A stretch of 64,000 nt of DNA from Serinicoccus chungangensis (GTDB lineage Bacteria > Actinomycetota > Actinomycetes > Actinomycetales > Dermatophilaceae): NCBI RefSeq assembly GCF_001483745.1, contig NZ_LQBL01000027.1, forward strand, positions 62,001 to 126,000. Direction: 5' to 3'. The notes under the pieces are model-generated. The model worked only from the letters and a program-made list of their open reading frames with translations. It was not told the DNA's origin and made no database searches. Position numbers and translations under genes: made by a program. Position 1 is the first letter of the stretch, and each line of letters begins with the position of its first letter. Shown piece by piece: positions 12,787 through 37,248 of this stretch.

Positions 12787-13218
12787 TCACCGTCCGTCCG
12801 GCCGGTCGCGCAGCGCGCAGGTGAGCCGGGCGGTGCAGACCCGGCGCCCACGGTCGTCGGTGATGGTGATGTCGTAGCTCGCGACCGTGCGGCCGAGGGA
12901 GAGCGGGGTCGCGACGGCGGTCACCTCGCCCTCCCGGACGGGCCGGTGGTGCGTGGCGCTGAGGTCGACCCCGACGGCGATGCGTCCCTCGCCCGCGTGC
13001 AACGCCGCGGCCACCGACCCGACGGTCTCGGCCAGCGCCGCCGACGCACCCCCGTGCAGCAGTCCGTAGGGCTGGGTGTTGCCCTCCACGGGCATGGTCG
13101 CGACGGTCCGCTGCGCGGACAGCTCCCGCAGCTGGATCCCCATGCGGCTGGCCAGGGCCCCCCGCGCGGCGTCGTCGGTCGTCGGGGTCGGGGGGCTCGA
13201 GGTGGTGTTGTCGGTCAT
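12787..13218 (-). CDS. PaaI family hotdog-fold thioesterase
   Basis: A 143-residue single-domain hotdog protein. The block YGLLHGGASAALAETVGS around residues 54-72 contains the HGG turn and the catalytic acidic residue on the central helix, as in PaaI/EntH-type acyl-CoA thioesterases. The C-terminal strands carry GVDLSATHHRPVREG. The substrate is unknown. It is convergent with pdtaR and divergent from polA with only 18 bases between the start codons, so its first codons overlap the polA promoter. Confidence 0.9.
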   Translation of the reverse strand: MTDNTTSSPPTPTTDDAARGALASRMGIQLRELSAQRTVATMPVEGNTQPYGLLHGGASAALAETVGSVAAALHAGEGRIAVGVDLSATHHRPVREGEVTAVATPLSLGRTVASYDITITDDRGRRVCTARLTCALRDRPDGR

Positions 13219-13230
13219 GGGACATAGGCT
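13208..13230 (+). promoter_or_regulatory. polA promoter: RecA-NDp/PafBC-type damage element plus -10
   Basis: TTGTCGGTC (13208-13216), 8 bases, then TAGGCT (13225-13230), then 6 bases to the GTG of polA at 13237. The layout equals the mycobacterial RecA-independent damage promoter (tTGTCRgtg-N8-TAnnnT), and the transcript would be leaderless. The 9-mer overlaps the first codons of the divergent thioesterase gene. The same layout occurs before uvrB and uvrA. Confidence 0.75.
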
Positions 13231-13236
13231 GCCACC

Positions 13237-15957
13237 GTGAGTCGTTTGCTGCTGCTGGACGGACATTCCCTGGCCTACCGCGCCTTCTTCGCGCTGCCCG
13301 TGGAGAACTTCTCCACCACGACGGGGCAGAGCACCAACGCGGTCTACGGCTTCACCTCGATGCTCATCAACGTGCTGCGCGACGAGGCGCCGACGCACCT
13401 GGCCGTCGCCTTCGACGTCTCCCGGCAGACCTTCCGGACGCAGGAGTACGCGGAGTACAAGGCCGGGAGGGCGACGACCCCGGGCGAGTTCGTCGGGCAG
13501 GTCGACCTCATCAAGCAAGTGCTGGACGCTCTGCGCATCACCCACGTCGAGGTCGACGGCTACGAGGCCGACGACATCATCGCCACCCTCACCGGGCAGG
13601 CCCGCTCCCAGGACATGGAGGTGCTCATCCTCTCGGGGGACCGCGACGCCTTCCAGCTCGTCGACGACAGGACGCTGCTGCTCTACCCGGTCCGGGGCGT
13701 CTCCGAGACCTGGCGGATGACCCCGGAGAAGGTCGAGGAGAAGTACGGCGTGCGCCCCGAGCGCTACAGCGACCTCGCCGCCATGGTGGGGGAGAGCTCG
13801 GACAACCTGCCCGGCGTCCCGGGGGTCGGGCCCAAGACCGCGGCGAAGTGGCTGGCCGCGCACGGTGACCTGTCCGGCATCGTCAGCGCCGCCGACCAGC
13901 TCACGGGCAAGGCCGGTCAGGCGCTCCGCGACCACCTGGACCAGGTGCTGCGCAACCGCCGGCTCAACCAGCTCGTGGGTGACGTGCCGCTGGAGGTCGG
14001 CATCGAGGACCTCCAGGCCAGGGGGTGGGACCGCGAGGAGGTGCACCGCGTCTTCGACGGGCTCGAGTTCCGCGTCCTGCGGGACCGGCTCTTCAGCACG
14101 CTGGAGTCGGCCGAGACGGAGGCCGAGGACGGCATCGAGGTCGCGGGGACGCTCCTGCAGCCCGGTGCCGTCGCCGCCTGGCTGGAGGAGCACGCGACCC
14201 GAGGTCGGGTGGCCCTGGTCGTGGACGCCGAGCCACGGACCGCCGCCGGCCCCGGGGAGGCCACCGGGCTGGCCCTCGCCGGACCCGAGGACGCGGCATA
14301 CCTCCCCCTCGCCGACATGGAGCCCGAGGACGAGGGCGCGCTGGTGGCATGGCTGGCGGACGCGTCCCGACCCAAGGCCCTGCACGGGGCCAAGGAGCAG
14401 GTCGCCTCGCTGGAGGCCGTCGGCCTGCAGGTCGAGGGGATCGTCAGCGACACCGCCCTCGCGGCCTACCTCGCCCGCCCGGACCAGCGCTCCTACGACC
14501 TGGCCGACCTCGCCCTGCGCTACCTGAGGCGCGAGCTGCGGCTGGAGGGGGGTGACGCCGCGGACGCGGTCTCGCAGGGCGAGCTGGACCTCGGGTTCGC
14601 GGAGGGGGAGCAGGACGCCCGCTCCGCCGCGGCGCGCTCGGCCATGGTGCACGCCCGCGCCGTGCACGACCTCGCCGAGGCCCTGGACGCCGAGCTCGCG
14701 GACGAGGAGGAGCAGCACCTGCTCCGCGAGGTGGAGCTGCCGCTGGTGGGGGTGCTGCGGCGGATGGAGCGCGCCGGCATCGCGGTCGACCTCGACGCGC
14801 TGGAGACCCTGGAGCGGGAGTTCGCCGACGGCGTGGCGCAGGCCCAGCAGGACGCCTGGGCCGCCATCGAGGACGACACCGTCAACCTGGGCTCGCCCAA
14901 GCAGCTGCAGACCGTGCTCTTCGACCGGCTCGCGCTGCCCAAGACCCGGCGGACCAAGACCGGCTACACGACGGACGCCGACGCCCTGGCAGGGCTGTAC
15001 GCGCAGACCGAGCACCCCTTCCTTGAGGCCTTGCTGCGGCACCGGGACGTCACCCGGCTCCGGGTCACCGCCGAGGGGCTCATCAAGGCGGTGGCCGACG
15101 ACGGGCGGATCCACACGACCTTCCAGCAGACCATCGCGGCCACGGGACGCCTGAGCTCGACCGAGCCGAACCTCCAGAACATCCCCATCCGGACGGCGGC
15201 CGGCCGGCGGATCCGGGAGATCTTCGTGGTCGGTTCCGAGCGCTCCTCCGGGACCCGCTACGCCACGCTCATGTCCGCCGACTACAGCCAGATCGAGATG
15301 CGCATCATGGCGCACCTGTCCGGCGACGACGGGCTCATCGAGGCCTTCCGCGCGGGGGAGGACCTGCACCGGTTCGTGGGCTCCCGGGTCTTCGGGGTGG
15401 ACCAGGCCGACGTGACGCCCGAGATGCGCTCCAAGGTCAAGGCGATGAGCTATGGGCTCGCCTACGGGTTGTCCGCCTTCGGGTTGTCCAAGCAGCTGGG
15501 CATCTCCACCGCCGAGGCCAAGGAGCTCATGGAGGAGTACTTCGAGCGGTTCGGGGGCGTGCGCGACTACCTGCGCGACGTCGTCTCCGAGGCGCGGCGC
15601 ACCGGCTTCACCGAGACCATCCTGGGCCGCCGTCGACACCTGCACGACCTCACCAGCGACAACCGGCAGCGGCGCGAGATGGCCGAGCGGATGGCCCTCA
15701 ACGCGCCGATCCAGGGGTCGGCCGCGGACATCATCAAGGTCGCGATGCTGCGGACCGAGGCCGCGCTGCGGGACGCCGGTCTGGAGTCCCGGATGCTGCT
15801 GCAGGTCCACGACGAGCTGGTCCTCGAGGTCGCGGCCGGCGAGGAGGTGCAGGTGGAGGCGCTCGTGCGGGAGCAGATGGGCGCCGCCGCCGAGCTGTCG
15901 GTGCCCCTGGACGTCAGCGTCGGCCTCGGGCACAGCTGGCACGAGGCAGCCCACTGA
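13237..15957 (+). CDS. polA: DNA polymerase I
   Basis: A 906-residue family A polymerase for gap filling in excision repair and Okazaki fragment maturation. The N-terminal 5'-3' nuclease domain (1-300; LLLLDGHSLAYRAFFALP, GYEADDIIAT, GVGPKTAAKWL) is followed by a 3'-5' exonuclease-like domain (about 315-490) and a complete polymerase domain (motif A DYSQIEMRIMAH, the RSKVKAMSYGLAYG O-helix block, motif C VHDELVLEV). The proofreading motifs look degenerate: a D-x-E remains in VVDAEP but the second and third acidic motifs are not recognisable, as in other actinobacterial Pol I. The GTG start lies 6 bases after the -10 box with no Shine-Dalgarno sequence. Confidence 0.98.
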   Translation: MSRLLLLDGHSLAYRAFFALPVENFSTTTGQSTNAVYGFTSMLINVLRDEAPTHLAVAFDVSRQTFRTQEYAEYKAGRATTPGEFVGQVDLIKQVLDALRITHVEVDGYEADDIIATLTGQARSQDMEVLILSGDRDAFQLVDDRTLLLYPVRGVSETWRMTPEKVEEKYGVRPERYSDLAAMVGESSDNLPGVPGVGPKTAAKWLAAHGDLSGIVSAADQLTGKAGQALRDHLDQVLRNRRLNQLVGDVPLEVGIEDLQARGWDREEVHRVFDGLEFRVLRDRLFSTLESAETEAEDGIEVAGTLLQPGAVAAWLEEHATRGRVALVVDAEPRTAAGPGEATGLALAGPEDAAYLPLADMEPEDEGALVAWLADASRPKALHGAKEQVASLEAVGLQVEGIVSDTALAAYLARPDQRSYDLADLALRYLRRELRLEGGDAADAVSQGELDLGFAEGEQDARSAAARSAMVHARAVHDLAEALDAELADEEEQHLLREVELPLVGVLRRMERAGIAVDLDALETLEREFADGVAQAQQDAWAAIEDDTVNLGSPKQLQTVLFDRLALPKTRRTKTGYTTDADALAGLYAQTEHPFLEALLRHRDVTRLRVTAEGLIKAVADDGRIHTTFQQTIAATGRLSSTEPNLQNIPIRTAAGRRIREIFVVGSERSSGTRYATLMSADYSQIEMRIMAHLSGDDGLIEAFRAGEDLHRFVGSRVFGVDQADVTPEMRSKVKAMSYGLAYGLSAFGLSKQLGISTAEAKELMEEYFERFGGVRDYLRDVVSEARRTGFTETILGRRRHLHDLTSDNRQRREMAERMALNAPIQGSAADIIKVAMLRTEAALRDAGLESRMLLQVHDELVLEVAAGEEVQVEALVREQMGAAAELSVPLDVSVGLGHSWHEAAH

Positions 15958-15965
15958 GGTGACCT

Positions 15966-15981
15966 GCGGCGGGCCCGCCGC
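15966..15981 (+). terminator. Palindromic hairpin after polA
   Basis: GCGGCGGGCCCGCCGC is a perfect 16-base palindrome 8 bases after the polA stop, extended by flanking AGGTG/CACCT. A second small hairpin (CCCTGC TAG GCAGGG, 16005-16019) follows. They are probable factor-independent or pause-type terminators without a T tract. Confidence 0.5.
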
Positions 15982-16066
15982 CACCTCCGCCGACCCGCAC
16001 CAGGCCCTGCTAGGCAGGGGGGCTGACGTGTGCTTTACTCCCGGTGTCCGCATCGAAGGAGATCCC

Positions 16067-17386
16067 GTGACCGCCCGCCTGTGGGCAGCGATCGCTGCCG
16101 TCCTGCTGGGGATGCTGCTGCTGGTGGCCCCGGCCGGCGCCACCACGCCCAGCGTGTCCTCCCCGGTCGCCGCGGGGGCCTCGGACGAGGCCGCCGAGAC
16201 GGTCCAGGGCACGGTGCGGGACCCGGACCGTGAGCCCCTCGAGGGCATCACCATCACGGTCACCCAGGACGGTGAGGAGATCGGCTCGGCGGTGACCGAC
16301 ACCGAGGGCTCCTGGGAGGTCCCGCTGCCCGGCCCCGGCTCCTACACCGTGACGCTGGACGTGGCCGGGCTGCCCGAGGGGGTGGCGCCGCGAGCCGAGG
16401 GCGGCGAGGTCCTGGACGGCGTGACCGTCCGCCCCGGAGCCTCCCAGGGGGTCATCTTCCAGCTGGGGACCGGTGAGGTCGAGGAGGGTGGCGCAGGGAT
16501 CCCGGTGGGCCGCGTGCTGCAGCTCGTGGTGGACGGCATCAAGTTCGGGGCGATCATCGCCATCACCGCGGTGGGGCTGTCCCTGGTCTTCGGCACCACC
16601 AAGCTCATCAACTTCGCGCACGGCGAGTTCGTCACCATCGGCGCGGTCACGGCATACTTCCTCAGCACCGCGCCCGGCAACCTGCCCATCGTCCTGGCGG
16701 CGGTGCTGGCCATGGTGGTCGGTGGAGCCGTCGCCGGCGGCGTCGAGGTCGGCCTCTGGCGGCCGCTGCGCAGGCGCGGAGCCGGGCTGATCCAGATGTT
16801 CATCGTGGCCATCGGGCTCTCGCTGCTGCTGCGCCACCTCATCCTCATCGTCTTCGGCTCCCGGCGCCAGCAGTACGACGAGTACTCGTTGCAGACCGCC
16901 TGGACCCTGGGCCCGGTGCGCATCACCCCCCGCGACCTGATCATCACCCTGCTGGCGTTCGCCATCATGATCGGCGTGGCGGTCATGCTGCAGCGCACCA
17001 GGATCGGGACGGCGATGCGCGCCGTCAACGACAACAAGGACCTGGCCGAGGCGTCCGGCATCGACGTCCAGCGGGTCATCCTCGTGGTCTGGGTGCTCGG
17101 GGGCGCCCTGGCCGCCATCGGGGGAGTCTTCTTCGGCCTCACCCAGGCCATCTACAGCGAGATGGGCTTCGAGCTGCTGCTGCTCATGTTCGCCGGGGTC
17201 ATCCTGGGCGGTCTGGGCAGCGCCTACGGCGCCATGCTGGGCTCGCTGGTCATCGGCCTGGTGTCGCAGCTGTCCACCCTCTGGTTCCCGGCCTCGCTGG
17301 CCTACATGTGGGCACTGCTCGTCATGATCATCGTTCTCCTCGTCCGGCCCCAGGGCATCCTGGGCCGGCGCGAGCGGGTCGGCTGA
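16067..17386 (+). CDS. livH: LivH-type branched-chain amino acid ABC permease with N-terminal carboxypeptidase-regulatory-like domain
   Basis: A 439-residue protein, about 140 longer than a usual LivH. Residues 1-25 form a signal-peptide-like helix ending in an Ala-rich APAGA site. Residues about 45-125 look like a carboxypeptidase-regulatory-like beta-sandwich (QGTVRDPDREPLEGITITV, VTDTEGSWEVPLPGPGSYTVTL). Residues about 145-435 are the LivH permease with eight or so helices and the LINFAHGEFVTIGA block. The permease forms the membrane channel with LivM and is powered by LivG and LivF. AAGGAG sits 5 bases before the GTG, so the long N-terminus is real. The added domain would sit outside the membrane and could contact the LivK binding protein; that is inference. 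Confidence 0.9.
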   Translation: MTARLWAAIAAVLLGMLLLVAPAGATTPSVSSPVAAGASDEAAETVQGTVRDPDREPLEGITITVTQDGEEIGSAVTDTEGSWEVPLPGPGSYTVTLDVAGLPEGVAPRAEGGEVLDGVTVRPGASQGVIFQLGTGEVEEGGAGIPVGRVLQLVVDGIKFGAIIAITAVGLSLVFGTTKLINFAHGEFVTIGAVTAYFLSTAPGNLPIVLAAVLAMVVGGAVAGGVEVGLWRPLRRRGAGLIQMFIVAIGLSLLLRHLILIVFGSRRQQYDEYSLQTAWTLGPVRITPRDLIITLLAFAIMIGVAVMLQRTRIGTAMRAVNDNKDLAEASGIDVQRVILVVWVLGGALAAIGGVFFGLTQAIYSEMGFELLLLMFAGVILGGLGSAYGAMLGSLVIGLVSQLSTLWFPASLAYMWALLVMIIVLLVRPQGILGRRERVG

Positions 17387-17397
17387 GGAGGGGAACG

Positions 17398-18387
17398 ATG
17401 GACGTCCTGGCAGTGCTCTCGGTCGCGGTCCGCGGCGCGCTCGGCCCCGAGGCCGCGATCTACGCCCTGGCCGCGATCGGGCTCAACATCCACTTCGGCT
17501 ACACCGGGCTGCTCAACTTCGGCCAGGTGGGCTTCATGCTCGTCGGCGCCTACGGCACGGCCATCTCGGTGCTGTCCTTCGACGCGCCGCTGTGGGCCGG
17601 CGTGCTCGTCGGGATGGCCTGCGCCGTCGTCCTGGCGCTCGTCCTCGGGATCCCCACGCTGCGGCTGCGGGGCGACTACCTCGCCATCGCCACCATCGCC
17701 GCCGCCGAGGTCCTGCGCTACCTCTACCGCTCCTCGTTCGCCGAGCCCGTGACCGGCGGCGTCTTCGGGCTCGTGCAGTTCGCCGGCGAGTTCTACGCCG
17801 TCAACCCCTACACCGCCCCGCTGGAGCTGGGACCGCTGCGCTTCAACGAGCGGGCCCTGTGGCTGATGACCGTGGCCTGGGGCATCACCTTCCTCGCCGC
17901 CGGGCTGGTGTGGCTGCTCGTGCACAGCCCGTGGGGCCGCGTGCTGCGTGCGGTCCGGGAGGACGAGGACGCGGCCCGCAGCCTGGGCAAGAACGTCTTC
18001 GCCTACAAGATGCAGGCCCTCGTCCTCGGCGGCGTGCTCGGGGCGCTGGCAGGGTCGTTGCTGGCGATCAACAGCCAGGCGATCACCCCCGACGCCTTCA
18101 TCCCGATCATCACCTTCTACCTGTGGACGATCATGATCCTGGGCGGGGCGAGCCGGGTCCTCGGGCCGATCCTGGGCTCCATCGTCTTCTGGTTTCTGCT
18201 CACCTTCCTCGACGCCTTCCTCCGCGGCGCCATGTCGGCGGGCTGGATCCCCGGCAGCCTGCTGGCCCCGAGCGACATCGGCGCCGTGCGCTTCGCGGCC
18301 GTCGGCCTGGGGCTCATGCTCCTCATGGTGTTCCGGCCCGCGGGGCTCATCGGCAACCAGAAGGAGCTGCGTCTCGATGTCCGATGA
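17398..18387 (+). CDS. livM: LivM-type branched-chain amino acid ABC permease
   Basis: A 329-residue permease with about nine hydrophobic segments. The N-terminal block ALAAIGLNIHFGYTGLLNFGQVGFM is the LivM signature, and EDEDAARSLGKNVFAYKMQA corresponds to the loop contacting the ATPase subunits. It pairs with the LivH-type subunit. GAGGAGGGG lies directly upstream of the ATG at 17398, 11 bases after livH. Its 3' end overlaps livG by 11 bases. Confidence 0.93.
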   Translation: MDVLAVLSVAVRGALGPEAAIYALAAIGLNIHFGYTGLLNFGQVGFMLVGAYGTAISVLSFDAPLWAGVLVGMACAVVLALVLGIPTLRLRGDYLAIATIAAAEVLRYLYRSSFAEPVTGGVFGLVQFAGEFYAVNPYTAPLELGPLRFNERALWLMTVAWGITFLAAGLVWLLVHSPWGRVLRAVREDEDAARSLGKNVFAYKMQALVLGGVLGALAGSLLAINSQAITPDAFIPIITFYLWTIMILGGASRVLGPILGSIVFWFLLTFLDAFLRGAMSAGWIPGSLLAPSDIGAVRFAAVGLGLMLLMVFRPAGLIGNQKELRLDVR

Positions 18388-19306
18388 CCGCCACGAGGAC
18401 CTCCTCGCCCAGCGCGAGTCCGTCCACGAGCAGGAGCAGGAGCGCGAGGACGCCCCCTCGGTGGGGGCCCGGCGCGCGGCCGCGGCGCTGGCGGGCGTCG
18501 CCAACGTCCCCGGTGTCGCCAAGCCGGACGCGATCCTGGTGGCGGACGACATGTCCCGTCACTTCGGCGGTGTCCGGGCGGTCGAGGTGGAGCACCTGGA
18601 GATCCAGCGCGGCACCATCACCGCGCTCATCGGTCCCAACGGCGCCGGCAAGTCCACCTTCTTCAACCTCATCACCGGGTTCGACAGGCCCAACTCGGGC
18701 CGCTGGTCCTTCGACGGCAGGGACATCAGCGGCGCCCCGTCCTTCCGCATCGCGCGGCACGGCATGGTCCGGACCTTCCAGCTGACCAAGGCCCTGACCC
18801 GGCTCACCAGCCTGGAGAACCTCATGCTGGGGGCGACGGGGCAGCGCGGCGAACGTCTGCTGACCTCGTTGCTGCGCCCGGCCTGGGCCGCGCAGGAGGC
18901 GGGGATCCGCGAGCGGGCCGAGGAGCTGCTGGCACGGTTCAACCTCAGCCACATGCGCGACGAGTTCGCCGGCACCATGTCCGGGGGGCAGCGCAAGCTG
19001 CTCGAGATGGCGCGGGCCCTCATGGTGCAGCCGGACATGATCCTGCTCGACGAGCCCATGGCCGGGGTCAACCCCGCCCTCACCCAGTCGCTGCTGGGCC
19101 ACATCGAGGCCCTGCGGGACGAGGGCATGACCATCGTCCTCGTCGAGCACGACATGGACGTCATCATGTCGATCAGCGACTGGGTGGTCTGCTTCGCCCA
19201 GGGCAAGGTCATCGCCGAGGGCCGCCCGGACGACATCCGCAGGGACACCGCGGTCATCGACGCCTACCTCGGCACCCACCGCTCCCTCCAGGAGGACCAG
19301 ACGTGA
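18377..19306 (+). CDS. livG: LivG-type ABC transporter ATP-binding protein with extended N-terminus
   Basis: A 309-residue ATPase of the branched-chain amino acid uptake system. Walker A is GPNGAGKST (about residues 89-97), the signature is MSGGQRKLLEMARAL, Walker B is MILLDEPMAGVNP and the switch His lies in LVEHDMDV. The first 55 residues are a highly charged Glu/Arg-rich extension absent from ordinary LivG proteins of about 255 residues. The start at 18377 is supported by AAGGAG 11 bases upstream inside livM. The stop overlaps livF (GTGA). Confidence 0.93.
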   Translation: MSDDRHEDLLAQRESVHEQEQEREDAPSVGARRAAAALAGVANVPGVAKPDAILVADDMSRHFGGVRAVEVEHLEIQRGTITALIGPNGAGKSTFFNLITGFDRPNSGRWSFDGRDISGAPSFRIARHGMVRTFQLTKALTRLTSLENLMLGATGQRGERLLTSLLRPAWAAQEAGIRERAEELLARFNLSHMRDEFAGTMSGGQRKLLEMARALMVQPDMILLDEPMAGVNPALTQSLLGHIEALRDEGMTIVLVEHDMDVIMSISDWVVCFAQGKVIAEGRPDDIRRDTAVIDAYLGTHRSLQEDQT

Positions 19307-20109
19307 GCGAGGACGTGCGACCGGAGCACCCGCGCGAGGACGCCGACGCGGAGCGTCCGCCGGACGCCCCCGCGCCGCGTGCGGAGCGGGTCCTGTGGAC
19401 CGAGCAGCTCGTCGCCGGGTACATCCCGGACGTCGACATCCTGCGGGGGTGCACGGTCGAGGTCCGGACCGGGGAGCTCGTCGGCATCATCGGTCCCAAC
19501 GGCGCCGGGAAGTCCACCCTCATCAAGGCGATGTTCGGGCTGGTCCCGATCCGCTCGGGCCAGGTCCTGCTCCAGGGCACGGACATCACCGGTCGCCCGG
19601 CCCACAAGCTCGTGGCCGACGGCCTGGGCTACGTGCCGCAGAACAACAACGTCTTCCCCTCGCTGACCGTGGAGGAGAACCTCCAGATGGGCCTCTACCT
19701 CCGGCCCAAGGAGTATGCCGCGCGCTTCGGCGAGGTGAGCGACCTCTACCCCTTGCTCGCCGACCGCCGGTCCCAGCGAGCCGGTTCGCTCTCCGGTGGT
19801 GAGCGGCAGGTGGTCGCCATGGGACGGGCCCTCATGACCGGCCCGCACGTCCTCTTCCTCGACGAGCCGTCCGCCGGCCTGTCGCCCCTCATGCAGGACT
19901 CGGTGTTCGAGGCCGTCGCGCGGATCAACGAGTCGGGGGTGTCGGTGCTCATGGTGGAGCAGAACGCCCGCCAGTGCCTGGAGATCTCCGACCGCGCCTA
20001 CGTGCTCGACCAGGGTCAGGACGCCTACACGGGGACGGGTGCCGAGCTGGCCCGCGACCCCAAGGTCATCGAGCTCTACCTCGGCACCCTGGCGCGCGTC
20101 GACGGCTGA
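19303..20109 (+). CDS. livF: LivF-type ABC transporter ATP-binding protein
   Basis: The second ATPase of the uptake system (268 residues). Walker A is GPNGAGKST (about 66-74), the LivF-typical GLGYVPQNNNVFPSLTVEENL block follows, the signature is LSGGERQVVAMGRAL, Walker B is VLFLDEPSAGLSP and the switch region reads MVEQNAR, as is normal for LivF. An acidic N-terminal tail of about 28 residues precedes the core. It ends the plus-strand liv operon; a strong hairpin lies 39 bases downstream. Confidence 0.93.
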   Translation: MSEDVRPEHPREDADAERPPDAPAPRAERVLWTEQLVAGYIPDVDILRGCTVEVRTGELVGIIGPNGAGKSTLIKAMFGLVPIRSGQVLLQGTDITGRPAHKLVADGLGYVPQNNNVFPSLTVEENLQMGLYLRPKEYAARFGEVSDLYPLLADRRSQRAGSLSGGERQVVAMGRALMTGPHVLFLDEPSAGLSPLMQDSVFEAVARINESGVSVLMVEQNARQCLEISDRAYVLDQGQDAYTGTGAELARDPKVIELYLGTLARVDG

Positions 20110-20148
20110 GAGCGGCCGACGCGGCCCGGCGGTCGCCGGTGGCGACCG

Positions 20149-20180
20149 GTGGTGGCCGGGTGCGCGCACCCGGCCACCAC
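20149..20180. terminator. Bidirectional terminator hairpin between livF and livK
   Basis: A perfect 15-bp stem, GTGGTGGCCGGGTGC (20149-20163) against GCACCCGGCCACCAC (20166-20180), with a 2-base centre. It lies between the convergent livF and livK stops and would work in both directions. No T tract flanks it. Confidence 0.75.
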
Positions 20181-20185
20181 GGCGC

Positions 20186-21538: not shown

Positions 21539-21590
21539 GTGTCACCTCTCTGGTGTTCGGGGGGCATCGTTGCCCCGTCCACGGGATCTC

Positions 21591-21596
21591 ACCCTA
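21591..21596 (-). promoter_or_regulatory. -10 box of livK
   Basis: On the minus strand this reads TAGGGT, about 52 bases before the livK ATG. A small leader hairpin (GGGGCAACGATGCCCC on the minus strand) lies between it and the Shine-Dalgarno sequence. No clear -35 element is seen. Confidence 0.5.
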
Positions 21597-21624
21597 GGAC
21601 GCGCCACCCACCGTCGTGCGCATC

Positions 21625-21640
21625 GTCACCAAACTGTGAC
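21625..21640. promoter_or_regulatory. Operator-like dyad upstream of livK
   Basis: GTCAC-N6-GTGAC forms a 5+5 inverted repeat about 29 bases upstream of the livK -10 box, between livK and the methyltransferase stop. It could bind an activator or repressor of livK; the regulator is unknown. Confidence 0.35.
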
Positions 21641-21644
21641 CTGA

Positions 21645-26110: not shown

Positions 26111-26133
26111 TTGTCAGTCCCGAGGACTACCGT
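26111..26133 (+). promoter_or_regulatory. uvrB promoter: RecA-NDp/PafBC-type damage element plus -10
   Basis: TTGTCAGTC (26111-26119), exactly 8 bases, then TACCGT (26128-26133), then 6 bases to the uvrB ATG at 26140. The layout equals tTGTCRgtg-N8-TAnnnT with a leaderless start. No LexA-type palindrome is present. Confidence 0.8.
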
Positions 26134-26139
26134 AGAGGC

Positions 26140-28251
26140 ATGCGTCCGACCACCGACCTCCAGCGCACGGTCAACCCGTTCCGCGTCGTCTCCGAGTTCA
26201 GCCCCAGCGGGGACCAGCCCACGGCGATCGCGGAGCTGGCCAGCAGGGTGCAGGCGGGGGAGGAGGACATCGTCCTGCTGGGCGCCACCGGCACCGGGAA
26301 GTCGGCGACGACCGCGTGGATGATCGAGCAGGTGCAGCGCCCGACGCTGGTCATGGCGCCCAACAAGACGCTGGCCGCGCAGCTGGCCAACGAGTTCAAG
26401 GAGCTGCTGCCGCACAACGCGGTGGAGTACTTCGTGAGCTACTACGACTACTACCAGCCCGAGGCCTACGTCCCGCAGACGGACACCTACATCGAGAAGG
26501 ACTCCTCCATCAACGACGAGGTGGAGCGGCTTCGCCACTCGGCCACCAACTCCCTGCTCACCCGCCGGGACGTCGTCGTGGTCGCGTCGGTGTCCTGCAT
26601 CTACGGGCTCGGCACCCCGCAGGAGTACGTCGACCGCATGGAACGGCTCCGGGTGGGGGAGACGGTGGAGCGCGACGAGCTGCTGCGCCGGTTCGTCACC
26701 ATGCAGTACACCCGCAACGACATGGCGTTCTCCCGCGGGACGTTCCGGGTGCGCGGGGACACCGTCGAGATCATCCCGCAGTACGAGGAGCTCGCGGTGC
26801 GGATCGAGTTCTTCGGGGACGAGATCGACCGGCTCTACACCCTCAACCCGCTGACCGGGGAGGTGGTGCGTGAGGAGCAGGAGATGTATGTCTTCCCGGC
26901 CTCCCACTACGTCGCCGGGCCGGAGCGGATGGAGCGCGCGATCGGCAGCATCGAGGCCGAGCTCGCGACCCAGCTGGAGACCTTTGAGAAGCAGGGCAAG
27001 CTCCTGGAGGCGCAGCGGCTGCGGATGCGGACCACCTACGACATCGAGATGATGCGCCAGGTCGGGTCCTGCTCCGGCATCGAGAACTACTCCCGGCACA
27101 TCGACGGGCGGTCCTCGGGGTCGGCCCCGAACTGCCTGCTCGACTACTTCCCGGAGGACTTCCTCCTCGTCCTGGACGAGTCGCACGTCACCGTGCCGCA
27201 GATCGGTGCGATGTACGAGGGGGACATGTCGCGCAAGCGCACCCTCGTCGACCACGGGTTCCGTCTGCCCAGCGCCATGGACAACCGCCCGCTGAAGTGG
27301 GAGGAGTTCCTGGAACGGATCGGCCAGACGGTCTACCTGTCCGCCACCCCCGGGGACTACGAGATGGCCAAGAGCGAGGGCTACGTCGAGCAGATCATCC
27401 GCCCGACCGGGCTGGTCGACCCGCAGGTCGTCCTCAAGCCCACCAAGGGCCAGATCGACGACCTGCTGCACGAGGTGGGGGAGCGTACGGCGCGCGACGA
27501 GCGGGTGCTGGTGACCACGCTGACCAAGAAGATGGCCGAGGACCTCACCGACTACCTGCTCGACAAGGGGGTCCGGGTGCGCTACCTGCACTCCGAGGTG
27601 GACACCCTGCGCCGGGTCGAGCTGCTGCGCGAGCTGCGCCTCGGCGAGTACGACGTGCTGGTGGGCATCAACCTGCTGCGCGAGGGTCTCGACCTGCCGG
27701 AGGTGTCCTTGGTGAGCATCCTGGACGCCGACAAGGAGGGCTTCCTGCGCTCCGCCCGGTCGCTCATCCAGACCATCGGCCGGGCCGCCCGCAACGTTTC
27801 GGGTCAGGTGCACATGTATGCCGACACCATCACCCCGTCGATGGAGCAGGCCATCGAGGAGACCAACCGGCGCCGGGACAAGCAGCTGACCTACAACGCC
27901 GCCCAGGGCATCGACCCGACCCCGCTGCGCAAGCGGATCGCCGACATCACCGACATGCTCGAGCGCGAGGACGCCGACACCGAGACCCTCATGGGCAGCG
28001 GGCGCAGCCAGTCCCGCGGCAAGAGCGGCGGCCGGGGTCGAGCGGCCGCGTCCGTCGTCGGTACCGGTGCGGTGGAGCGCCGGGCCGGGGAGCAGCTGCC
28101 GGCGACCGAGCTGGCCGATCTCATCCACGAGCTCACCGAGCAGATGCACCAGGCGGCCACCGACCTGCACTTCGAGCTGGCGGCCCGCCTCCGGGACGAG
28201 ATCGGTGACCTCAAGAAGGAGCTGCGTCAGATGCGCGAAGCCACCGGCTGA
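26140..28251 (+). CDS. uvrB: Excinuclease ABC subunit B
   Basis: UvrB (703 residues) is the damage-verifying helicase of nucleotide excision repair, loaded by UvrA and partner of UvrC. Walker A is GATGTGKS (48-55). The beta-hairpin block [21 protein letters not shown], helicase motifs [13 protein letters not shown] and [13 protein letters not shown], and the [10 protein letters not shown] motif VI are intact. The C-terminal UVR motif (about 660-695) follows a basic Gly/Arg/Ser-rich linker. The ATG at 26140 is chosen because it matches the family N-terminus and sits 6 bases after the -10 box; upstream in-frame codons run into the terminator. Confidence 0.98.
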
Positions 28252-28355: not shown

Positions 28356-28387
28356 GGACCGTCGGGGCGGAGCAAGCTCCGCCAGAC
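28352..28387 (+). promoter_or_regulatory. Nested dyads in the TerC-gene leader
   Basis: GTCTGG (28352-28357) pairs with CCAGAC (28382-28387), and inside it GGCGGAGC (28366-28373) pairs with GCTCCGCC (28376-28383), sharing two bases with the outer arm. The structure overlaps the predicted transcription start. The conserved bases of the manganese yybP-ykoY riboswitch are not present. Confidence 0.4.
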
Positions 28388-28410
28388 ACCACTCATCTCG
28401 GGAGGTTGCG

Positions 28411-29400: not shown

Positions 29401-29431
29401 TGTCGTCGACCCAGCGCCAGGGCCGGATGGG

Positions 29432-30328
29432 TCACCTCCCGCTGGGCGACGCGTCCGGCAACGGCTCACCCGCGCGCGGACGGCCGAGCACGACGATGCT
29501 CGCCGTCACCACGAGCACCATGCCGACCAGCTGAGGCGCGGAGAGCACCTGGCCGAGCACGAGCAGGCCCGCCAGGGCGGCCGCCGCAGGCTCTAGGCTG
29601 AGCAGGACGCCGAAGGTCCCGGAGCGCAGACGGCGCAGCGCCAGCAGCTCCAGGCTGTAGGGCACGGCCGAGGAGAGCAGGGCGATCCCGAGCCCGCGCA
29701 GGAGGACGTCGGCCGACCACAGGTCCGTCCCGGCCGTGAGCAGACCGACCGGCAGCATGACCACCGCGCCGAGAGCCATGCAGATCGCGATGCCGTCGAG
29801 CCCGGCGAACCGTGCGCCGGTACGGCGGCTCAGGACGATATAGGCGGCCCAGCAGGCGCCGGCGGAGGCAGCCAGCAGGATGCCCACGAGGTCCAGCTCG
29901 GCCCAGGGGGTGGTCAGCGCCCCGGAGATGAGCGTCACGCCGAGCAGGGCCGCCAGCACCGCCGCGCCGTCGCGCACGCGTCGCGAGAGCACGGCCGCGA
30001 GGGCCAGCGGGCCCAGGAACTCGATGGTCACGGCCACCCCGATCGGCAGTCTGGCCAGCGAGCCGTAGAACGCGAGGTTCATGGTGGTGAGGGCCACGGC
30101 GAACAGCCCGACCACCGACCAGTCGGCGGCGCTGCGGCCCCGGAGCCGGGGCCGCACGAACAGCCACAGGACCGCGGTCGCCAGCACCAGGCGCAGCGTC
30201 ACCGAGCCGACCACCCCGACGATCGGCAGCAGCGTGGCCGCCAGGGCCCCGCCGAACTGGACGGAGACGACCGCGAGGAGGACGAGGGCGACCGGGCGCC
30301 CGGCCAGGGAACGACCGGGGAGCGTCAC
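29432..30328 (-). CDS. EamA/RhtA-type transporter
   Basis: A 298-residue protein with ten predicted helices arranged as two EamA repeats. The first repeat has LAFYGSLARLPIGVAVTIEFLGPLALA and the second has AVPYSLELLALRRLRSGTFGVLLSLEPAAAALAG, the form seen in RhtA/YdcZ-like amino acid or threonine/homoserine exporters. The GTG start at 30328 overlaps the upstream MBL stop (GTGA), so it is coupled to that gene. The transported compound is not shown by the sequence. Confidence 0.88.
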   Translation of the reverse strand: MTLPGRSLAGRPVALVLLAVVSVQFGGALAATLLPIVGVVGSVTLRLVLATAVLWLFVRPRLRGRSAADWSVVGLFAVALTTMNLAFYGSLARLPIGVAVTIEFLGPLALAAVLSRRVRDGAAVLAALLGVTLISGALTTPWAELDLVGILLAASAGACWAAYIVLSRRTGARFAGLDGIAICMALGAVVMLPVGLLTAGTDLWSADVLLRGLGIALLSSAVPYSLELLALRRLRSGTFGVLLSLEPAAAALAGLLVLGQVLSAPQLVGMVLVVTASIVVLGRPRAGEPLPDASPSGR

Positions 30329-31011
30329 CACCCGCGTTCGCGCCACTGCGGCAACGAGCCGCGCTCGGCGCCCAGGGTGGTGTTGTCCCCGTGGCCCGGG
30401 AGGACGAGGGCGTCGTCGTCGAAGACCGCGAAGACGCGGGCCTCCAGGTCGTCCATGAGGACGGTGAAGTCGTGCGCCGAGGTGGTCCTGCCCGGCCCGC
30501 CGGGGAAGAGGCTGTCCCCGGTGAAGAGCAGGGTCGTGGTGCGGTCCGCCGCGGTGCTGAGCGCGAGCGCGACCGAGCCGGGGGTGTGACCCCGCAGGTG
30601 CACGACGTCCAGGACCAGGTTCCCGACGCGCAGCGTGTCCCCGTCCCGGAGACGGTGGTCGACCGGCACCGGCAGGTCGTCGGCGTCGACCGCCCCGGCC
30701 AGGGTCGCCGCCCCCGTGCGCCGGACGAGCTCGGGGAGGGCCCGGTGGTGGTCCCAGTGCCGGTGCGTGGTGAGGACCTGCCCGAGCTCGTGGCCGCCCC
30801 GTCGGCCGTCCTCCTCGAGCAGGCGGACGATCCGCTCGACGTCGTCCGCGGCGTCCACCAGCAGGCGCTCGCCGGTCGCGGTGCAGGTGATGAGGTAGAC
30901 GTTGTTGTCCATCTCGCTCACGCTGCACTTGCGCACGACGACCGATCCGAGGTCGTAGGTCCAGCTCGCGCCGCCGGGGGTGACGTGTCCGTGCAGGTCT
31001 TCGGGCTTCAC
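30325..31011 (-). CDS. MBL-fold metallo-hydrolase, glyoxalase II-like
   Basis: A 228-residue metallo-beta-lactamase-fold protein. The metal-binding motif THRHWDHH (H-x-H-x-D-H) lies near residue 83; a further His in LRGHTPGSVAL, Asp in LLFTGDSLFPGGPGRT and His in LVLPGHGDNTTLG complete the two-metal site. This is the arrangement of hydroxyacylglutathione-hydrolase-like enzymes; in a mycothiol organism a mycothiol thioester is a plausible substrate. Proteins of this kind are found near uvrA and gltD in actinobacteria. The GTG start is 6 bases after a TAGACT box. Confidence 0.88.
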   Translation of the reverse strand: MKPEDLHGHVTPGGASWTYDLGSVVVRKCSVSEMDNNVYLITCTATGERLLVDAADDVERIVRLLEEDGRRGGHELGQVLTTHRHWDHHRALPELVRRTGAATLAGAVDADDLPVPVDHRLRDGDTLRVGNLVLDVVHLRGHTPGSVALALSTAADRTTTLLFTGDSLFPGGPGRTTSAHDFTVLMDDLEARVFAVFDDDALVLPGHGDNTTLGAERGSLPQWRERGW

Positions 31012-31017
31012 GCGGCG

Positions 31018-31023
31018 AGTCTA
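31018..31023 (-). promoter_or_regulatory. Leaderless -10 box of the MBL hydrolase gene
   Basis: On the minus strand this reads TAGACT, 6 bases before the GTG at 31011, in the 23-base gap after gltD. It suggests that the MBL-EamA pair can be transcribed separately from gltBD. Confidence 0.55.
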
Positions 31024-31034
31024 GGCGGGCCGGC

Positions 31035-32495
31035 TCACACGGCCAGCGGCCGGTCCGTGGCCTTGATCGGTGAGGGCAGCGTGGTGGTCCCGGAGAGGTA
31101 CCGGTCGACCGTGGCCGCACACGCGCGGCCCTCGGCGATCGCCCAGACGATGAGGGACTGCCCGCGGCCGCAGTCACCGGCGGCGAAGACCCCGGGCAGC
31201 GGGGTCGCGAAGGCGTCGTTGCGCTCGTAGGTGTTGCGCGCGGACCGGGGCAGCACCTCCTCCGGTGCCGCCTGGTCGTCCGGCCCGACGAAGCCCATCG
31301 CGAGGAGCACCAGCTCGGCCGGGATCTCCCGCTCGCTGCCCTCGGTCGGCACGAACCGGCCGTCGGTGAACCTGCCGTCCACCATGACCAGACCGCGCAC
31401 CCGGCCCTCGTCGTCACCGAGTACCTCGACGGTGGACGCGCCGTAGGTGCGGTCCCCACCCTCCTCGTGGGCCTCGCTCACCTTGTAGAGCATGGGGTAG
31501 GTGGGCCAGGGCTGGTTCTTGGGCCGCTCCTGCGGCGGGGTCGGCATGATCTCCAGCTGCAGGACCGAGGCCGCCCCGTGCCGGTGCGCGGTCCCGAGGC
31601 AGTCGGCGCCGGTGTCGCCGCCGCCGATGATGACCACATGCTTGCCGCCGGCGTCGATCCCGCGCGGCCCGCCCAGCGCCTCCTTGTTGGCGGGCACGAG
31701 GAAGTCCATCGCCGGGTGGACGCCGTCCAGCTCGGCTCCCGGCACCTGCAGCATCCGGGGCACGGTCGACCCGGTCGCGAGGACGACGGCGTCGAAGCGC
31801 TCCCGGAGCTGGTCCAGGGACTCGTCGTCGGGGCCGTCACCCCCGATCGTCACGCCGGTGACGAACCGGATGCCCTCGGCGCGCAGCTGGACGAGGCGCC
31901 GGTCCAGGACCGACTTCTCCATCTTGAACTCCGGTATGCCGTAGCGCAGCAGCCCGCCGACCGCGTCGGAGCGCTCGTAGACGACGACCGTGTGGCCGGC
32001 CCGGCCCAGCTGCTGCGCGGCGGCCAGCCCGGCCGGCCCCGACCCGACCACGGCGACCGTCTTCCCGCTGAGCCACTCCGGCTCCTGGGGCGTGACGCGG
32101 CCGTTGGAGAACGCCCGGTCGATGATCGAGACCTCGATCTGCTTGATCGTCACCGGCGGCTGGTTGATGCCGAGCACGCAGGCGGTCTCGCACGGCGCGG
32201 GGCACAGCCGACCGGTGAACTCCGGGAAGTTGTTGGTCGCGTGCAGGCGCTCGATGGCCTCGGCGAAGTTGGCCCGCCGGGTCTGGTCGTTCCACTCCGG
32301 GATGAGGTTGCCGAGCGGGCACCCGGTGTGGCAGAAGGGGATGCCGCAGTCCATGCACCGGCTGGCCTGCCGCTGCAGGACCGAGGTCTCCTGCTCGCCG
32401 TGCACCTCCTCCCAGTCCATGATGCGCACGGGGACCGGCCGTGAGGGCCGGTTCTCCCGCTCGCGGTGGGTCAGGAAGCCTTTGGGGTCAGCCAT
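31035..32495 (-). CDS. gltD: Glutamate synthase small subunit
   Basis: GltD (486 residues) feeds NADPH electrons through FAD to the large subunit of glutamate synthase. The N-terminal Cys clusters for two 4Fe-4S centres are present ([17 protein letters not shown] and [16 protein letters not shown]). They are followed by an FAD-binding fold ([22 protein letters not shown]) and the NADPH site ([22 protein letters not shown]). The C-terminal [19 protein letters not shown] closes the FAD site. The ATG at 32495 lies 8 bases inside the end of gltB. Confidence 0.97.
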
Positions 32496-35400
32496 GGGAG
32501 TCCTCCAGGATGAGCTGCCAAGCGTGGGGGCCGTTGGGGTCGTCGCCGCGTTCCTCCGCCTCCCGGCGGATGCGCAGCACGCTGGCGTACTGGCGCGGGG
32601 TGACGACGGTGAGCCGGAGAGCCCAGTCGGGGTCGTCCAGCAGCTCGCTGGCGACCGTGCTGCCGGTGAGCTCGGCGTGCTCCTCGAGCAGCGCTCGCAC
32701 GTGGTCGACGTGCCCGGTCTCCGCCAGGGGGGCGAGGAGCAGGTCGCCGCCCGCCACGGCGAGCGGGTTGAGCGTGCCGCGGTCCAGGTCCAGGACGACG
32801 CCGGTGCCACCCGACATCCCCGCGCCGAGGTTGCGGCCGGTCCGGCCCAGGATGAGGGCCAGCCCACCGGTCATGTACTCCAGGGCGTGGTCGCCCACGC
32901 CCTCGACGACCGCGGTGGCTCCGGAGTTGCGGACGCAGAACCGCTCACCCACGACACCGCGCAGGTTGACCTGCCCGGACGTCGCTCCGTAGCAGATGAC
33001 GTTGCCCGCGACGACCTGGTCGGTGGCGACGAAGGCCGACCCCTCCTCGGGCCGGACCACGATACGCCCCCCGGAGAGGCCCTTGCCGACGAAGTCGTTG
33101 GCGTCGCCGACGAGGCGCAGGGTGATCCCGCGGGGCAGGAACGCCCCGAGGGACTGCCCGGCCGAGCCGGTCAGCGTGAGGTCGATGGTGCCGTCCGGCA
33201 GCCCCTCCGGTCCTGCGGAGACCGTGACGTGGTGGCCCAGGAGGGTGCCCACCGTGCGGTTGACGTTGGTGATCGGGAACGAGCCCACCACCGGGGTGCC
33301 GTCGGCGAGCGCCGGGCCGGCCAGCTCCACGAGCTGGTTGTCCAGCGCCGCCTCCAGGCCGTGCTCCTGCGTGGTGGTGCAGTGGCGGGAGGCGCCCTCG
33401 GGCAGGTCGGTGAGGTGCAGCACGGGGGAGAGGTCCAGCCCGTCGGCCTTCCAGTGCTCGACGGCACGGGAGGTGTCCAGGAGGTCGCTGCGCCCGATGA
33501 CCTCGTCCATCGAGCGGTACCCCAGGCTCGCGAGCAGCTCCCGCACCTGCTGGGCGATGAACTCGAAGAAGGTGACCACGAACTCGGCCTTGCCGGTGTA
33601 GCGCTCGCGCAGCTCGGGGTTCTGCGTGGCGATGCCCACGGGGCAGGTGTCGAGGTGGCAGACCCGCATCATGATGCACCCGGAGACCACGAGGGGCGCG
33701 GTGGCGAAGCCGTACTCCTCTGCGCCCAGGAGGGCCGCGACGAGGACGTCCCGCCCCGTCTTGAGCTGCCCGTCGCACTGGACCACGATGCGGTCTCGCA
33801 GCCCGTTGAGCAGCAGCGTCTGCTGGGTCTCCGCGAGGCCGAGCTCCCAGGGCGTGCCCGCGTGCTTGAGCGAGGTGAGCGGGCTGGCGCCGGTGCCCCC
33901 GTCGTGCCCCGAGATGAGCACGACGTCGGACTTCGCCTTCGACACGCCGGCGGCCACCGTCCCGACGCCGATCTGGCTCACCAGCTTGACGTGGATGCGC
34001 GCGCGGGGGTTGGCGTTCTTGAGGTCGTGGATGAGTTGCTTGATGTCCTCGATGGAGTAGATGTCGTGGTGCGGCGGCGGGGAGATGAGGCCCACGCCGG
34101 GGGTGGAGTGCCGGGTGCTCGCCACCCAGGGGTAGACCTTGCCCGGCGGCAGCTGTCCGCCCTCACCCGGCTTGGCACCCTGCGCCATCTTGATCTGGAT
34201 GTCGTCGGCGTGCACGAGGTAGGGCGAGGTGACGCCGAAGCGTCCCGAGGCCACCTGCTTGATGGCCGAGCGCCGCTCGGGGTCCAGCAACCGCTCCACG
34301 TCCTCGCCGCCCTCGCCGGTGTTGGACTTGCCGCCCAGCCGGTTCATCGCGACGGCCAGCGTCTCGTGCGCCTCCTGGGAGATCGAGCCGTAGCTCATGG
34401 CCCCCGTGGCGAACCGCTTGACGATCGCGCTGACCGGCTCGACCTCCTCGACGTCGATCGGCTCCCGGTCCGGCTGCAGCCGGAACAGCCCCCGCAGGGT
34501 CATGAGGCTCGCGGACTGCTCGTCGACGAGGTCGGTGTAGCGGGTGAAGACGTCGTAGCGACCCTCCCGGGTGGCGTGCTGCAGCCGGAAGACCGCCTCC
34601 GGGCTGAAGAGGTGCGGGGGGCCCTCGCGACGCCACTGGTACTCCCCGCCGATGTCGAGCGCGCGGTGGTAGGGCGGGATGCCGGACAGCGGGTAGGCCA
34701 CGGCGTGCCGGCGCGCCACCTCCTCGGCGATGACCCCCAGACCCACCCCGTCGATCTGGCTGGTCGTGCCGGTGAACCACCGGGTGACGACGTCCTGCGA
34801 CAGGCCGACGGCCTCGAAGGTCTGGGCGCCGCGGTAGGAGGCGATCGTGGAGATGCCCATCTTGGACATGACCTTGAGGACACCCTTGCCCAGCGCCTTG
34901 ATGAGGTTCCTGATGGCGACGTCCGGGTCGAGGCCGTCCAGCAGCTGGCCGGCCGAGCAGAGGTTCTCGACGGTCTCCATGGCCAGGTAGGGGTTGACCG
35001 CGGCCGCGCCGTAGGCGACGAGCAGCGCGACGTGGTGGGTCTCACGCACGTCGCCGGCCTCGACGAGGAGCCCGACCCGCGTCCGGGTGTTGTTGCGCAC
35101 GAGGTGGTGGTGCACCGCGCTGGTGAGCAGCAGCGAGGGTATGGGCGCCCGCTCGCGGTCGGCGTGCCGGTCGGAGAGCACCACGAAAAAGGCCCCGCCG
35201 GCGATGGCCTCGTCGACCTCGGCGCAGATCTCCTCGAGCCGCTGCTCCAGGGCCGCAGCACCGCCGTCGACGCGGTAGAGCCCGCGGACGACCACGGCGT
35301 CCAGCCCGGGGTGCTCGCCGTCGGCGTTGATCCGGCGCAGCTTGGCGAGCTGGTCGTTGTCGATGACGGGGAAGGGCAGGACGACCTGCCGCGCGTGCGC

Positions 35401-37074
35401 GGGCGTCTCGTCGAGCAGGTTGGGCTCGGGACCGCTCGAGGCCTCCAGCGAGGTGACGATCTCCTCCCGGATCGCGTCCAGGGGCGGGTTGGTCACCTGT
35501 GCGAAGGCCTCGACGAAGTAGTCGAAGAGCAGCCGCGGTCGGTCGGACAGCACGGCGATCGGGGTGTCGGTGCCCATGGCGCCCAGCGGCTCGGCCCCGG
35601 CCTGGGCCATCGGGGCCAGGATGATCCGCAGCTCCTCCTCGGTGTAGCCGAAGATCTGCTGGCGCCGGGTCACGGACGCATGGGTGTGCCGCACGTGGAC
35701 CTGCGTGGGCAGGGAGTCCATGTGCACCAGCTCCGCATCGAGCCACTCGCGGTAGGGCTGGCGTGCGGCCAAGTCCCGCTTCACCTCGGTGTCGTCCAGG
35801 ATCTCCCCGCGGTCGAGGTCGACCAGGAACATCCGGCCCGGGGCGACCCGGCCCTTGCGCACCACGCGCTCGGGCGGGATCGGCAGCAGGCCCGACTCCG
35901 AACCGAGCACGACCAGCCCGTCGTCGGTGACCCAGTACCGGGAGGGGCGCAGCCCGTTCCGGTCGAGCACGGCCCCGACCTGGGTGCCGTCGGTGAACAC
36001 CAGGTTGGCCGGCCCGTCCCACGGCTCCATGAGCATGGAGTGGAACTCGTAGAAGGCGCGGACGTCGGGGTCCATCGTCTCGTCGTTCTCCCAGGACTCC
36101 GGGATCATCATGAGGACGGCGTGGGGGAGGGAGCGCCCGCCGAGGCTCAGCAGCTCCAGCACCTCGTCGAAGGTCGCGGAGTCGCTGGCGTCGGGGGTGC
36201 AGATCGGCAACGCGTCCGCGAGGTCCCCGGGGAACAGCTCGCTGCGCAGCTCGGACTGGCGGGCCCTCATCCAGTTGCGGTTGCCCTTGACCGTGTTGAT
36301 CTCGCCGTTGTGCGCGATGACCCGGTAGGGGTGCGCCAGGGGCCAGGACGGGAAGGTGTTGGTCGAGAAGCGGGAGTGGACGACCGCGAGGGCGCTCGTG
36401 AAGCGCTCGTCGGTGAGGTCCGGGAAGTAGGCGGGGAGCTGGTCGGTGGTGAGCATGCCCTTGTAGGTCATGGTCCGCGTCGAGAGGGACACGGGGTAGG
36501 CGGGCGTGCGCCGCTCGACCCGCTTGCGGGCCAGCCAGACGCGGCGCTCCAGCTCCAGACCGGACTCCTGCGGGGTCGCCTCGCCCGCGGCGACCACGAG
36601 CTGACGCATGACCGGCATGACCGAGAGCGCGGTCGGGCCGACCAGGCCGGGGTCGACCGGGACGTCGCGCCAGCCGAGCACCCGCAGTCCCGATCCCTCG
36701 ACGATCTCCTCCACCTGCGCCGCGACCTCGTCGGTCTGCCCCTGCCCCGGCAGGAACACGATGCCCGCGGCGTACCGGCCGGGCTCCGGCAGCTCGAAGG
36801 GCAGCACCTCGCGCAGGAAGGCGTCGGGCAGCTGCGTGAGGATGCCGGCCCCGTCACCGGTGTTCTCCTCGCTGCCGACGGCACCACGGTGGTCCAGGTT
36901 GTGCAGCGCGGTGAGCGCCTGGGCGACGATGTCGTGGCGGGGGACCCCGTCCAGGGTGGCCACGAAGGCGACACCGCAGCTGTCGTGCTCGTGGGCACCG
37001 TCGTACAGACCCTGGGGCGCCGCCCCCGGGACGGGACGCAGGGCAGAGGAGGTCTGGTCGATCGACTCTGTCAT
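32488..37074 (-). CDS. gltB: Glutamate synthase large subunit
   Basis: GltB (1528 residues) transfers the amide of glutamine to 2-oxoglutarate, giving two glutamates. The class II glutaminase nucleophile is Cys33 in [15 protein letters not shown], so a 32-residue propeptide is probably removed. The central FMN/synthase domain has [32 protein letters not shown] and the 3Fe-4S Cys cluster near [24 protein letters not shown]. The C-terminal Gly-rich beta-helix ([17 protein letters not shown]-like) is complete. The ATG at 37074 has only a weak Shine-Dalgarno sequence. It is divergent from uvrA across 180 bases. Confidence 0.98.
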
Positions 37075-37178
37075 GGGATCACCGGATTTCAGGACGGGGC
37101 GCGCCACCACGGGAGCGGCAGGCCGGAAGAACACGATCGGGGCGACGACGACCCGGCGAAGGTTTCATGCAGGGTTCA

Positions 37179-37190
37179 GCATACCTATGC
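37179..37190. promoter_or_regulatory. Inverted repeat in the gltB-uvrA divergent region
   Basis: GCATA-CC-TATGC forms a 5+5 dyad in the middle of the 180-base divergent spacer. On the minus strand it includes TATGCT, a possible -10 for gltB, so a bound protein could control gltB transcription. The regulator is unknown. Confidence 0.4.
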
Positions 37191-37225
37191 AGTTGCCCTG
37201 GCGGAAAAGCCGTCGGAGGAGAGGT

Positions 37226-37248
37226 GTGTCGGTGCCGGGACCTACAGT
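37226..37248 (+). promoter_or_regulatory. uvrA promoter: RecA-NDp/PafBC-type damage element plus -10
   Basis: GTGTCGGTG (37226-37234), exactly 8 bases, then TACAGT (37243-37248), then 6 bases to the GTG of uvrA at 37255. Eight of the nine bases of the 5' block fit tTGTCRgtg. The transcript would be leaderless. Confidence 0.8.

Follow-up and report, generated by a model that had tools for sequence, protein, structure and literature searches.

Promoters of the RecA-NDp type, which are under PafBC control in mycobacteria, were reportedly first described as a motif by Gamulin in 2004 and as a regulon by Muller in 2018. Their consensus is quoted as tTGTCRgtg-8 nt-TAnnnT (PMC5656591). Outside mycobacteria, promoters of this type precede damage genes in Actinomycetales and were shown in Streptomyces, there for the single genes recA and SCO6735 (PMC5087735). 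In contrast, the motif appeared not to be conserved in a first search of S. venezuelae, and that study left the PafBC regulon open (PMC9380542). DriD of Caulobacter is similar by description, being a WYL activator of a non-canonical damage response that binds single-stranded DNA (ssDNA) (PMC12340889). We found no regulon study for the Serinicoccus lineage in the literature, which is weak evidence of absence given that subscription papers were mostly outside the coverage. Here, we analysed a window of 64,000 nucleotides (C27:62001-126000) from a Serinicoccus genome of 3.56 Mb in 33 contigs, in which polA, uvrB and uvrA are each preceded by a promoter of this layout. We propose, with a probability of about 0.9 and from sequence comparison, that these are PafBC-dependent promoters of the RecA-NDp type in a genome-wide, LexA-independent damage regulon of a Serinicoccus-like actinobacterium. 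That the control is of the known PafBC type, here in another lineage, appears well supported at the sequence level. The system resembles that of Mycobacterium in the box, the 8-base spacing and the form of the -10 element, in having genes for UvrABC and RecA among its members (PMC8223512), and in PafB-PafC encoded near pupylation genes, the ssDNA-binding residues and a LexA arm alongside.

All three promoters lie on the plus strand, and their boxes at about -26 were read directly. The polA box, TTGTCGGTC (13208-13216), is followed after 8 bases by the -10 element TAGGCT (13225-13230) and after 6 more by GTG, the predicted leaderless start (13237) of a DNA polymerase I of 906 aa (13237..15957; NCBIfam NF004397, 1031 bits; this and the two models named below are curated equivalogs). 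The uvrB box, TTGTCAGTC (26111-26119), has the same 8-base gap to TACCGT (26128-26133) and the same 6-base gap to the ATG at 26140, which opens the gene for excinuclease subunit B, 703 aa (26140..28251; NF003673, 1076 bits). At uvrA, encoding excinuclease subunit A of 992 aa (37255..40233; NF001503, 1531 bits), box GTGTCGGTG (37226-37234) and TACAGT (37243-37248) are placed identically before the GTG at 37255. An earlier sequence-only reading had called this layout exact and equal to the mycobacterial motif; the box, gap and -10 element are present as it gave them, and its wording was slightly too strong because one weakly conserved position of tTGTCRgtg, written in lower case, is changed in each 9-mer. 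Unlike the mycobacterial consensus, the box ends with C in polA and uvrB. When searching the window for KTGTCRGTS-N8-TANNNT with at most one mismatch, we obtained three matches, which were exactly the polA, uvrB and uvrA sites, in agreement with the statement that other inspected promoters lack the motif. Shuffled windows gave 0.35 matches on average, and three were reached in 1 of 100 shuffles. TGTCRGTS occurs 22 times in the window and is followed by TANNNT after 8 bases in three cases, and in none at the other spacings from 2 to 20. The same reading described the three genes as unlinked, which does not hold, as all three fit into 24 kb and relatives have the cluster too.

Across the whole genome, TGTCRGTS-N8-TANNNT had 20 exact sites, compared with one for the pattern read backward, which served as control for the motif counts. 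The stricter TTGTCRGTS-N8-TANNNT was found at polA and uvrB only (control, 0). An RTG start codon follows the -10 element by 6-7 nt at 16 of the 20 exact sites (control, 0), opening a long frame at 14 of them and a frame of 7 or 8 codons at two. By family assignment, DNA repair or replication genes stand behind 7 of the 20: polA, uvrB, uvrA, a photolyase, a GyrB/ParE-type subunit, a DEDD exonuclease with a UvrC-like part and an HRQ1-type DEAD helicase. Assuming (not measuring) a background of 3% of such genes, this has a P of about 1e-6. The enrichment at repair genes that the sequence-only reading expected from such a scan was thus observed, and the sites carry the box, the 8-base spacer and the TAnnnT -10 of PafBC/RecA-NDp promoters with S instead of G as the final box base. 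The recA gene has a box with one mismatch, TGTCGGGG-N8-TAGCGT, 87 bases before its ATG, i.e. with a leader (L058, C2:55964-56923); three strict patterns did not detect a LexA box in the fetched stretch. Looser patterns were noisier, with 156 matches against 72 in the control (up to three mismatches with N6) and 118 against 15 (up to two mismatches with N7). Products at these places were hand-picked for Pfam searches (7 of 30 N6-pattern places with loci and 9 of 22 one-mismatch N7-pattern places), and likely added members are ligA, a LigD-type polymerase, an Nth-type glycosylase, an Lhr-type helicase, RecC, RarA, DnaX, an ATP-dependent ligase, and SprT-like and DUF222 proteins.

We asked whether the spacing to the start codon marks the regulon, as had been argued from the identical N6 gaps. 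We scored TANNNT elements with a downstream RTG that opens a long frame of coding-type composition, in 104 kb of the genome: the window plus two stretches of 20 kb, which had been selected to surround pafBC and one motif site. The distance was 6 in 11 cases, 7 in 7 cases, and each other distance up to 30 occurred 0-2 times; 13 of the 18 cases at 6 or 7 lack the TGTC box. The N6 gap is therefore no mark of a damage regulon, since a leaderless layout is general in this genome, and we discarded it as a damage-specific feature. The same numbers favour a reading of the sites as ordinary sigma-A leaderless promoters whose TGTC box is a degenerate -35 element or a chance match, as their -10 element and start spacing are indeed ordinary. 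However, the distance from a -35 hexamer to the -10 element has to be about 16-18 bases and is 8 here, which rules out TTGTC as a sigma-A -35. Moreover, the counts of 20 versus 1 in this genome and 533 versus 3 in 38 genomes of the class (see below), the restriction to spacing 8 in the window and the repair genes behind 7 of 20 sites all speak against it. The control counts refute sigma-A promoters or chance as the sole explanation, and we give this reading a very slim chance. At 14 of the 20 sites, the start codon that opens a long frame follows directly, unlike at the mapped site of M. tuberculosis Rv1955, which has a leader (PMC2897130). Judged by titles and abstracts, no paper that addresses PafBC together with leaderless starts was found.

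The genome encodes the expected regulator. Three WYL matches were found, two of them in adjacent genes, pafB and pafC, and the third at C11:147279. The gene order is arc, a major facilitator superfamily (MFS) gene, dop, pup, pafA and FKBP-type genes, followed by pafB-pafC-tatA-tatC; ARC, Dop, Pup and PafA are encoded at L056 2540-9895 and pafB starts at about 14881, approximately 5 kb downstream of pafA. The pafBC pair is thus linked to the pupylation locus, in line with the sequence-only reading, which had suggested looking for it next to the proteasome genes. Unlike in mycobacteria, a 20S proteasome gene was not found in the genome (no PF00227 match at E 0.001, in a search that matched 10 of 14 control genomes); the 20S proteasome is a companion in mycobacteria and no requirement of PafBC itself. 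PafC has the domains HTH_PafC, WYL and WCX, and PafB has WYL and WCX. No helix-turn-helix family matched PafB in Pfam, yet it has a full-length match to PafB of M. smegmatis. The closest solved structures are PafBC of M. smegmatis (9fnd, 9fne and 7p5x) and of A. aurescens (6sj9), and the matches to the M. smegmatis PafB and PafC chains of 9fnd/7p5x have E values of 6e-54 and 2e-59. The alignment, numbered by hand, shows that our PafB conserves all four residues (R181, Y196, R204 and R208 in the M. smegmatis protein) that contribute to binding of ssDNA or to complex formation (PMC11804915). Our PafC is 95-96% identical to PafC of Serinicoccus sediminis and of two uncultured Serinicoccus, consistent with an organism in or close to Serinicoccus. 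The enrichment, the repair genes behind the sites and the location of pafBC support the LexA-independent PafBC repair regulon that the earlier reading had proposed.

We then analysed the distribution of the motif, counting matches in which the -10 element is followed by a start codon at 6-7 bases. Among 38 nearer relatives, including our genome, 36 have such sites (one control match in total). An even draw of 396 genomes across the phylum had the motif with start in 104, among them all 38 genomes of the same class (our genome included), with 2-38 sites each and 533 sites in total versus 3 in the control. PafC is present in all 38 class genomes at E 5e-27 or better. Site numbers were high in family f17, where 11 genomes of 6.1-9.9 Mb have 10-38 sites each. 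Outside the class, family f27 is the clearest, with 45 sites in 16 of 17 genomes (control, 1). PafC was related to site number in 18 hand-picked genomes of the 38 relatives, namely 4 members of the genus and every one of the 14 that share its order but belong to other genera. Where PafC matched at E<1e-40 (14 genomes), 1-17 sites were counted, compared with 0, 0, 1 and 1 in the remaining 4, whose PafC is weak or missing (one-sided Mann-Whitney P 0.002, ignoring kinship). On the reach of PafBC control outside mycobacteria, the literature is divided between an Actinomycetales-wide account (PMC5087735) and the failed S. venezuelae search (PMC9380542), and the class-wide presence of exact promoters makes this question directly testable. 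The chief value of the analysis lies in this class-wide distribution and in the composite PafBC/LexA promoters described below.

The same genes were found behind the motif in other genomes. We fetched 40 stretches: L250, to look for uvrA of G012, and 39 others around listed motif sites. By blastp, the genes behind the 39 motif sites are polA (11), uvrB (9), uvrA (5), the MFS gene of the pup locus (1) and DUF222-type genes (4), and 9 matched no query; among these 9, Pfam named one UvrC, one DEDD/GIY-YIG nuclease and two DUF222 proteins. The order polA-uvrB-uvrA, with a promoter at each, is kept in G006, G008, G015 and G013. A spacing of 18 in three named loci represents one gene's promoter region in related species. 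Because the sites were selected by pattern, partly also by likeness and position relative to the polA, uvrB and uvrA promoters, only the identity of the downstream genes counts as evidence.

Several observations weigh against a PafBC regulon of repair genes. Box letters of the fetched orthologous promoters agree by construction (0.94-0.96 compared with 0.50-0.58 further upstream), so we did not use this agreement, and the uvrA promoter of G012 has TGTCGGGG, with one mismatch. In our genome, 13 of the 20 exact sites precede genes outside the repair/replication count. Pumps are among their products, an unlikeness to the mycobacterial regulon; there are two MFS proteins and a DrrA-like ATP-binding cassette protein, one protein each of the CopD/CtaG and PNPOx types, an RNB ribonuclease and two proteins without a Pfam match. 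Also in this group are one DUF222 protein and members of two nuclease-like families, a metallophosphoesterase and an endonuclease/exonuclease/phosphatase-family protein, and two sites, C5:24735 and C33:70272, have no start codon at 6-9 bases. Two of the 38 relatives (G026 and G034) have no site at all. Outside the class, the motif is present in 66 of 358 genomes, with 120 sites versus 23 in the control, and 59 of these 66 have 1-3 sites, the maximum being 7 (hand counts). Finally, families f28, f29 and f59 have a clear PafC (best E values 1.5e-50, 1.6e-63 and 9.2e-63, respectively) and no motif-start match in any genome drawn. PafC alone is thus no predictor of the motif; a diverged motif or leadered promoters may explain these families.

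Such families would also fit a different activator, for example a ClgR-like protein or a third WYL protein, that reads the box while PafBC merely co-occurs. A report of a ClgR-like protein binding the mycobacterial motif is cited in PMC5656591, and our genome does contain the third WYL gene mentioned above. However, our PafB retains the ssDNA residues and both PafB and PafC their domain make-up, site number follows PafC in the 18 relatives, and PafBC of M. smegmatis acts through the same motif (PMC6789036). We therefore consider another activator to have a slim chance and retain PafBC as the probable regulator of the polA, uvrB and uvrA promoters. This assignment is based on the motif, its spacing and enrichment, its presence before these genes in other genera as well, the regulator with its key residues, and their co-occurrence; from these we infer activation by ssDNA, the transcription start, leaderless translation and induction by damage. 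By analogy with M. smegmatis, ssDNA made at damage would bind the WYL domains of a PafB-PafC heterodimer, which would then join RNA polymerase-sigma A. The helix-turn-helix of PafB would read the TGTCRGTS box at about -26, replacing a -35 element, and transcription would start 6-7 nt after the TANNNT -10, on the start codon, to give leaderless polA, uvrB and uvrA mRNAs.

A classical SOS response, with polA, uvrB and uvrA under LexA control, would be the textbook alternative. The genome has lexA (identified by Pfam), a box-like AAACATGTGTTC stands in the intergenic region of that gene, LexA-type boxes occur at other genes, and one exact GAACN4GTTC lies at 38116, inside the uvrA frame and 861 bases past its start. 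On the other hand, GAACN4GTTC with up to one mismatch is absent just upstream of polA, uvrB and uvrA, as the sequence-only reading had noted. One-mismatch matches occur inside polA and uvrB, and the window total of 12 equals chance level (13 expected). LexA control of the three genes was rejected on these grounds, and we give the SOS reading hardly any chance. The presence of lexA and LexA-type boxes is a likeness to the LexA SOS regulon; the missing upstream palindrome sets polA, uvrB and uvrA apart from it. The claimed LexA-independence is supported at promoter level for these three genes only; at three places elsewhere in the genome, a LexA-type box lies on the same -10 element as a PafBC-type box.

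The pattern CGWAC-N4-GTTCG occurs at 8 places in the genome (11 strand matches; control, 0), and three of the five CGTAC-form boxes overlap the -10 element of PafBC-type promoters. At C2:95841, the composite promoter has an exact -26 box and the product is a DUF222 protein by Pfam. At C28:182068 (L222) and C28:240974 (L223), the -26 box has one mismatch and precedes short masked frames, which have no Pfam match although they are DUF222-like by eye. Five sites of relatives carry TACACTTGTTCGCATG; their products are DUF222 proteins by Pfam in two cases and by blastp to our DUF222 proteins in two (one of the latter also with a sub-threshold Pfam hit), and the fifth is not DUF222. L226 had no Pfam match, although it is DUF222-like by eye. 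In mycobacteria, recA, uvrA and uvrC are reported to be under dual control (PMC8223512), and by analogy we take the LexA-type box over the PafBC-type -10 as dual control. Shared ancestry of multi-copy genes could also account for the conserved letters at the composite promoters. Combining these observations, we tentatively suggest, at somewhat below even odds, that PafBC is a class-wide damage switch of Actinomycetes, with a PafBC/LexA AND gate at DUF222 (13E12-like) genes and leaderless open reading frames (ORFs) of 7-8 codons at a photolyase and an MFS pump. At such a gate, where CGTAC-N4-GTTCG overlies the -10 element, expression would need both ssDNA-activated PafBC and loss of LexA, and the stop of each short ORF overlaps the start of the main gene.

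The remaining CGWAC-N4-GTTCG boxes lie before a DUF222 gene (C27:21488), before a protein with DUF6504 (C28:361920), a domain found beside ImuB/DnaE2, inside a long frame (C28:349796), and before two products without a Pfam match. Two N stand at identical positions in the L222 and L223 frames, both of which break off early, indicative of masked or collapsed repeat sequence. Strong DUF222 proteins also stand behind PafBC-type promoters in f18 (L263 and L264, from G131 and G074; E 3e-100 and 5e-70). As f18 is another family of the class, the link between DUF222 and the motif is not confined to the genus.

The leaderless 8-codon ORF (L055, C33:144405) and 7-codon ORF (L037, C2:263056) both begin at PafBC-type starts, and their xTGA overlaps the start of the photolyase and MFS gene, respectively. 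Both are conserved in G012 (L248 and L247), which is weak evidence in so close a relative. The end of the polA box reads CAT (13216-13218), from which a divergent frame on the minus strand could start; a count by eye gave CAT at this position in 10 of the 12 polA promoters that were aligned. One f17 genome has palindrome-rich inverted ends, and the core of the Streptomyces telomere was absent from the six contig ends inspected in three f17 genomes. The pump gene inside the pup locus, another difference from mycobacteria, is the MFS gene between ARC and Dop (L056:4531-6558, corresponding to G000:C27:176531-178558); it encodes 675 aa with C-terminal carboxypeptidase-regulatory-like repeats. It has an exact PafBC-type promoter, and the same promoter type and protein (97% identity over 310 aa) are present in G012 (L249).

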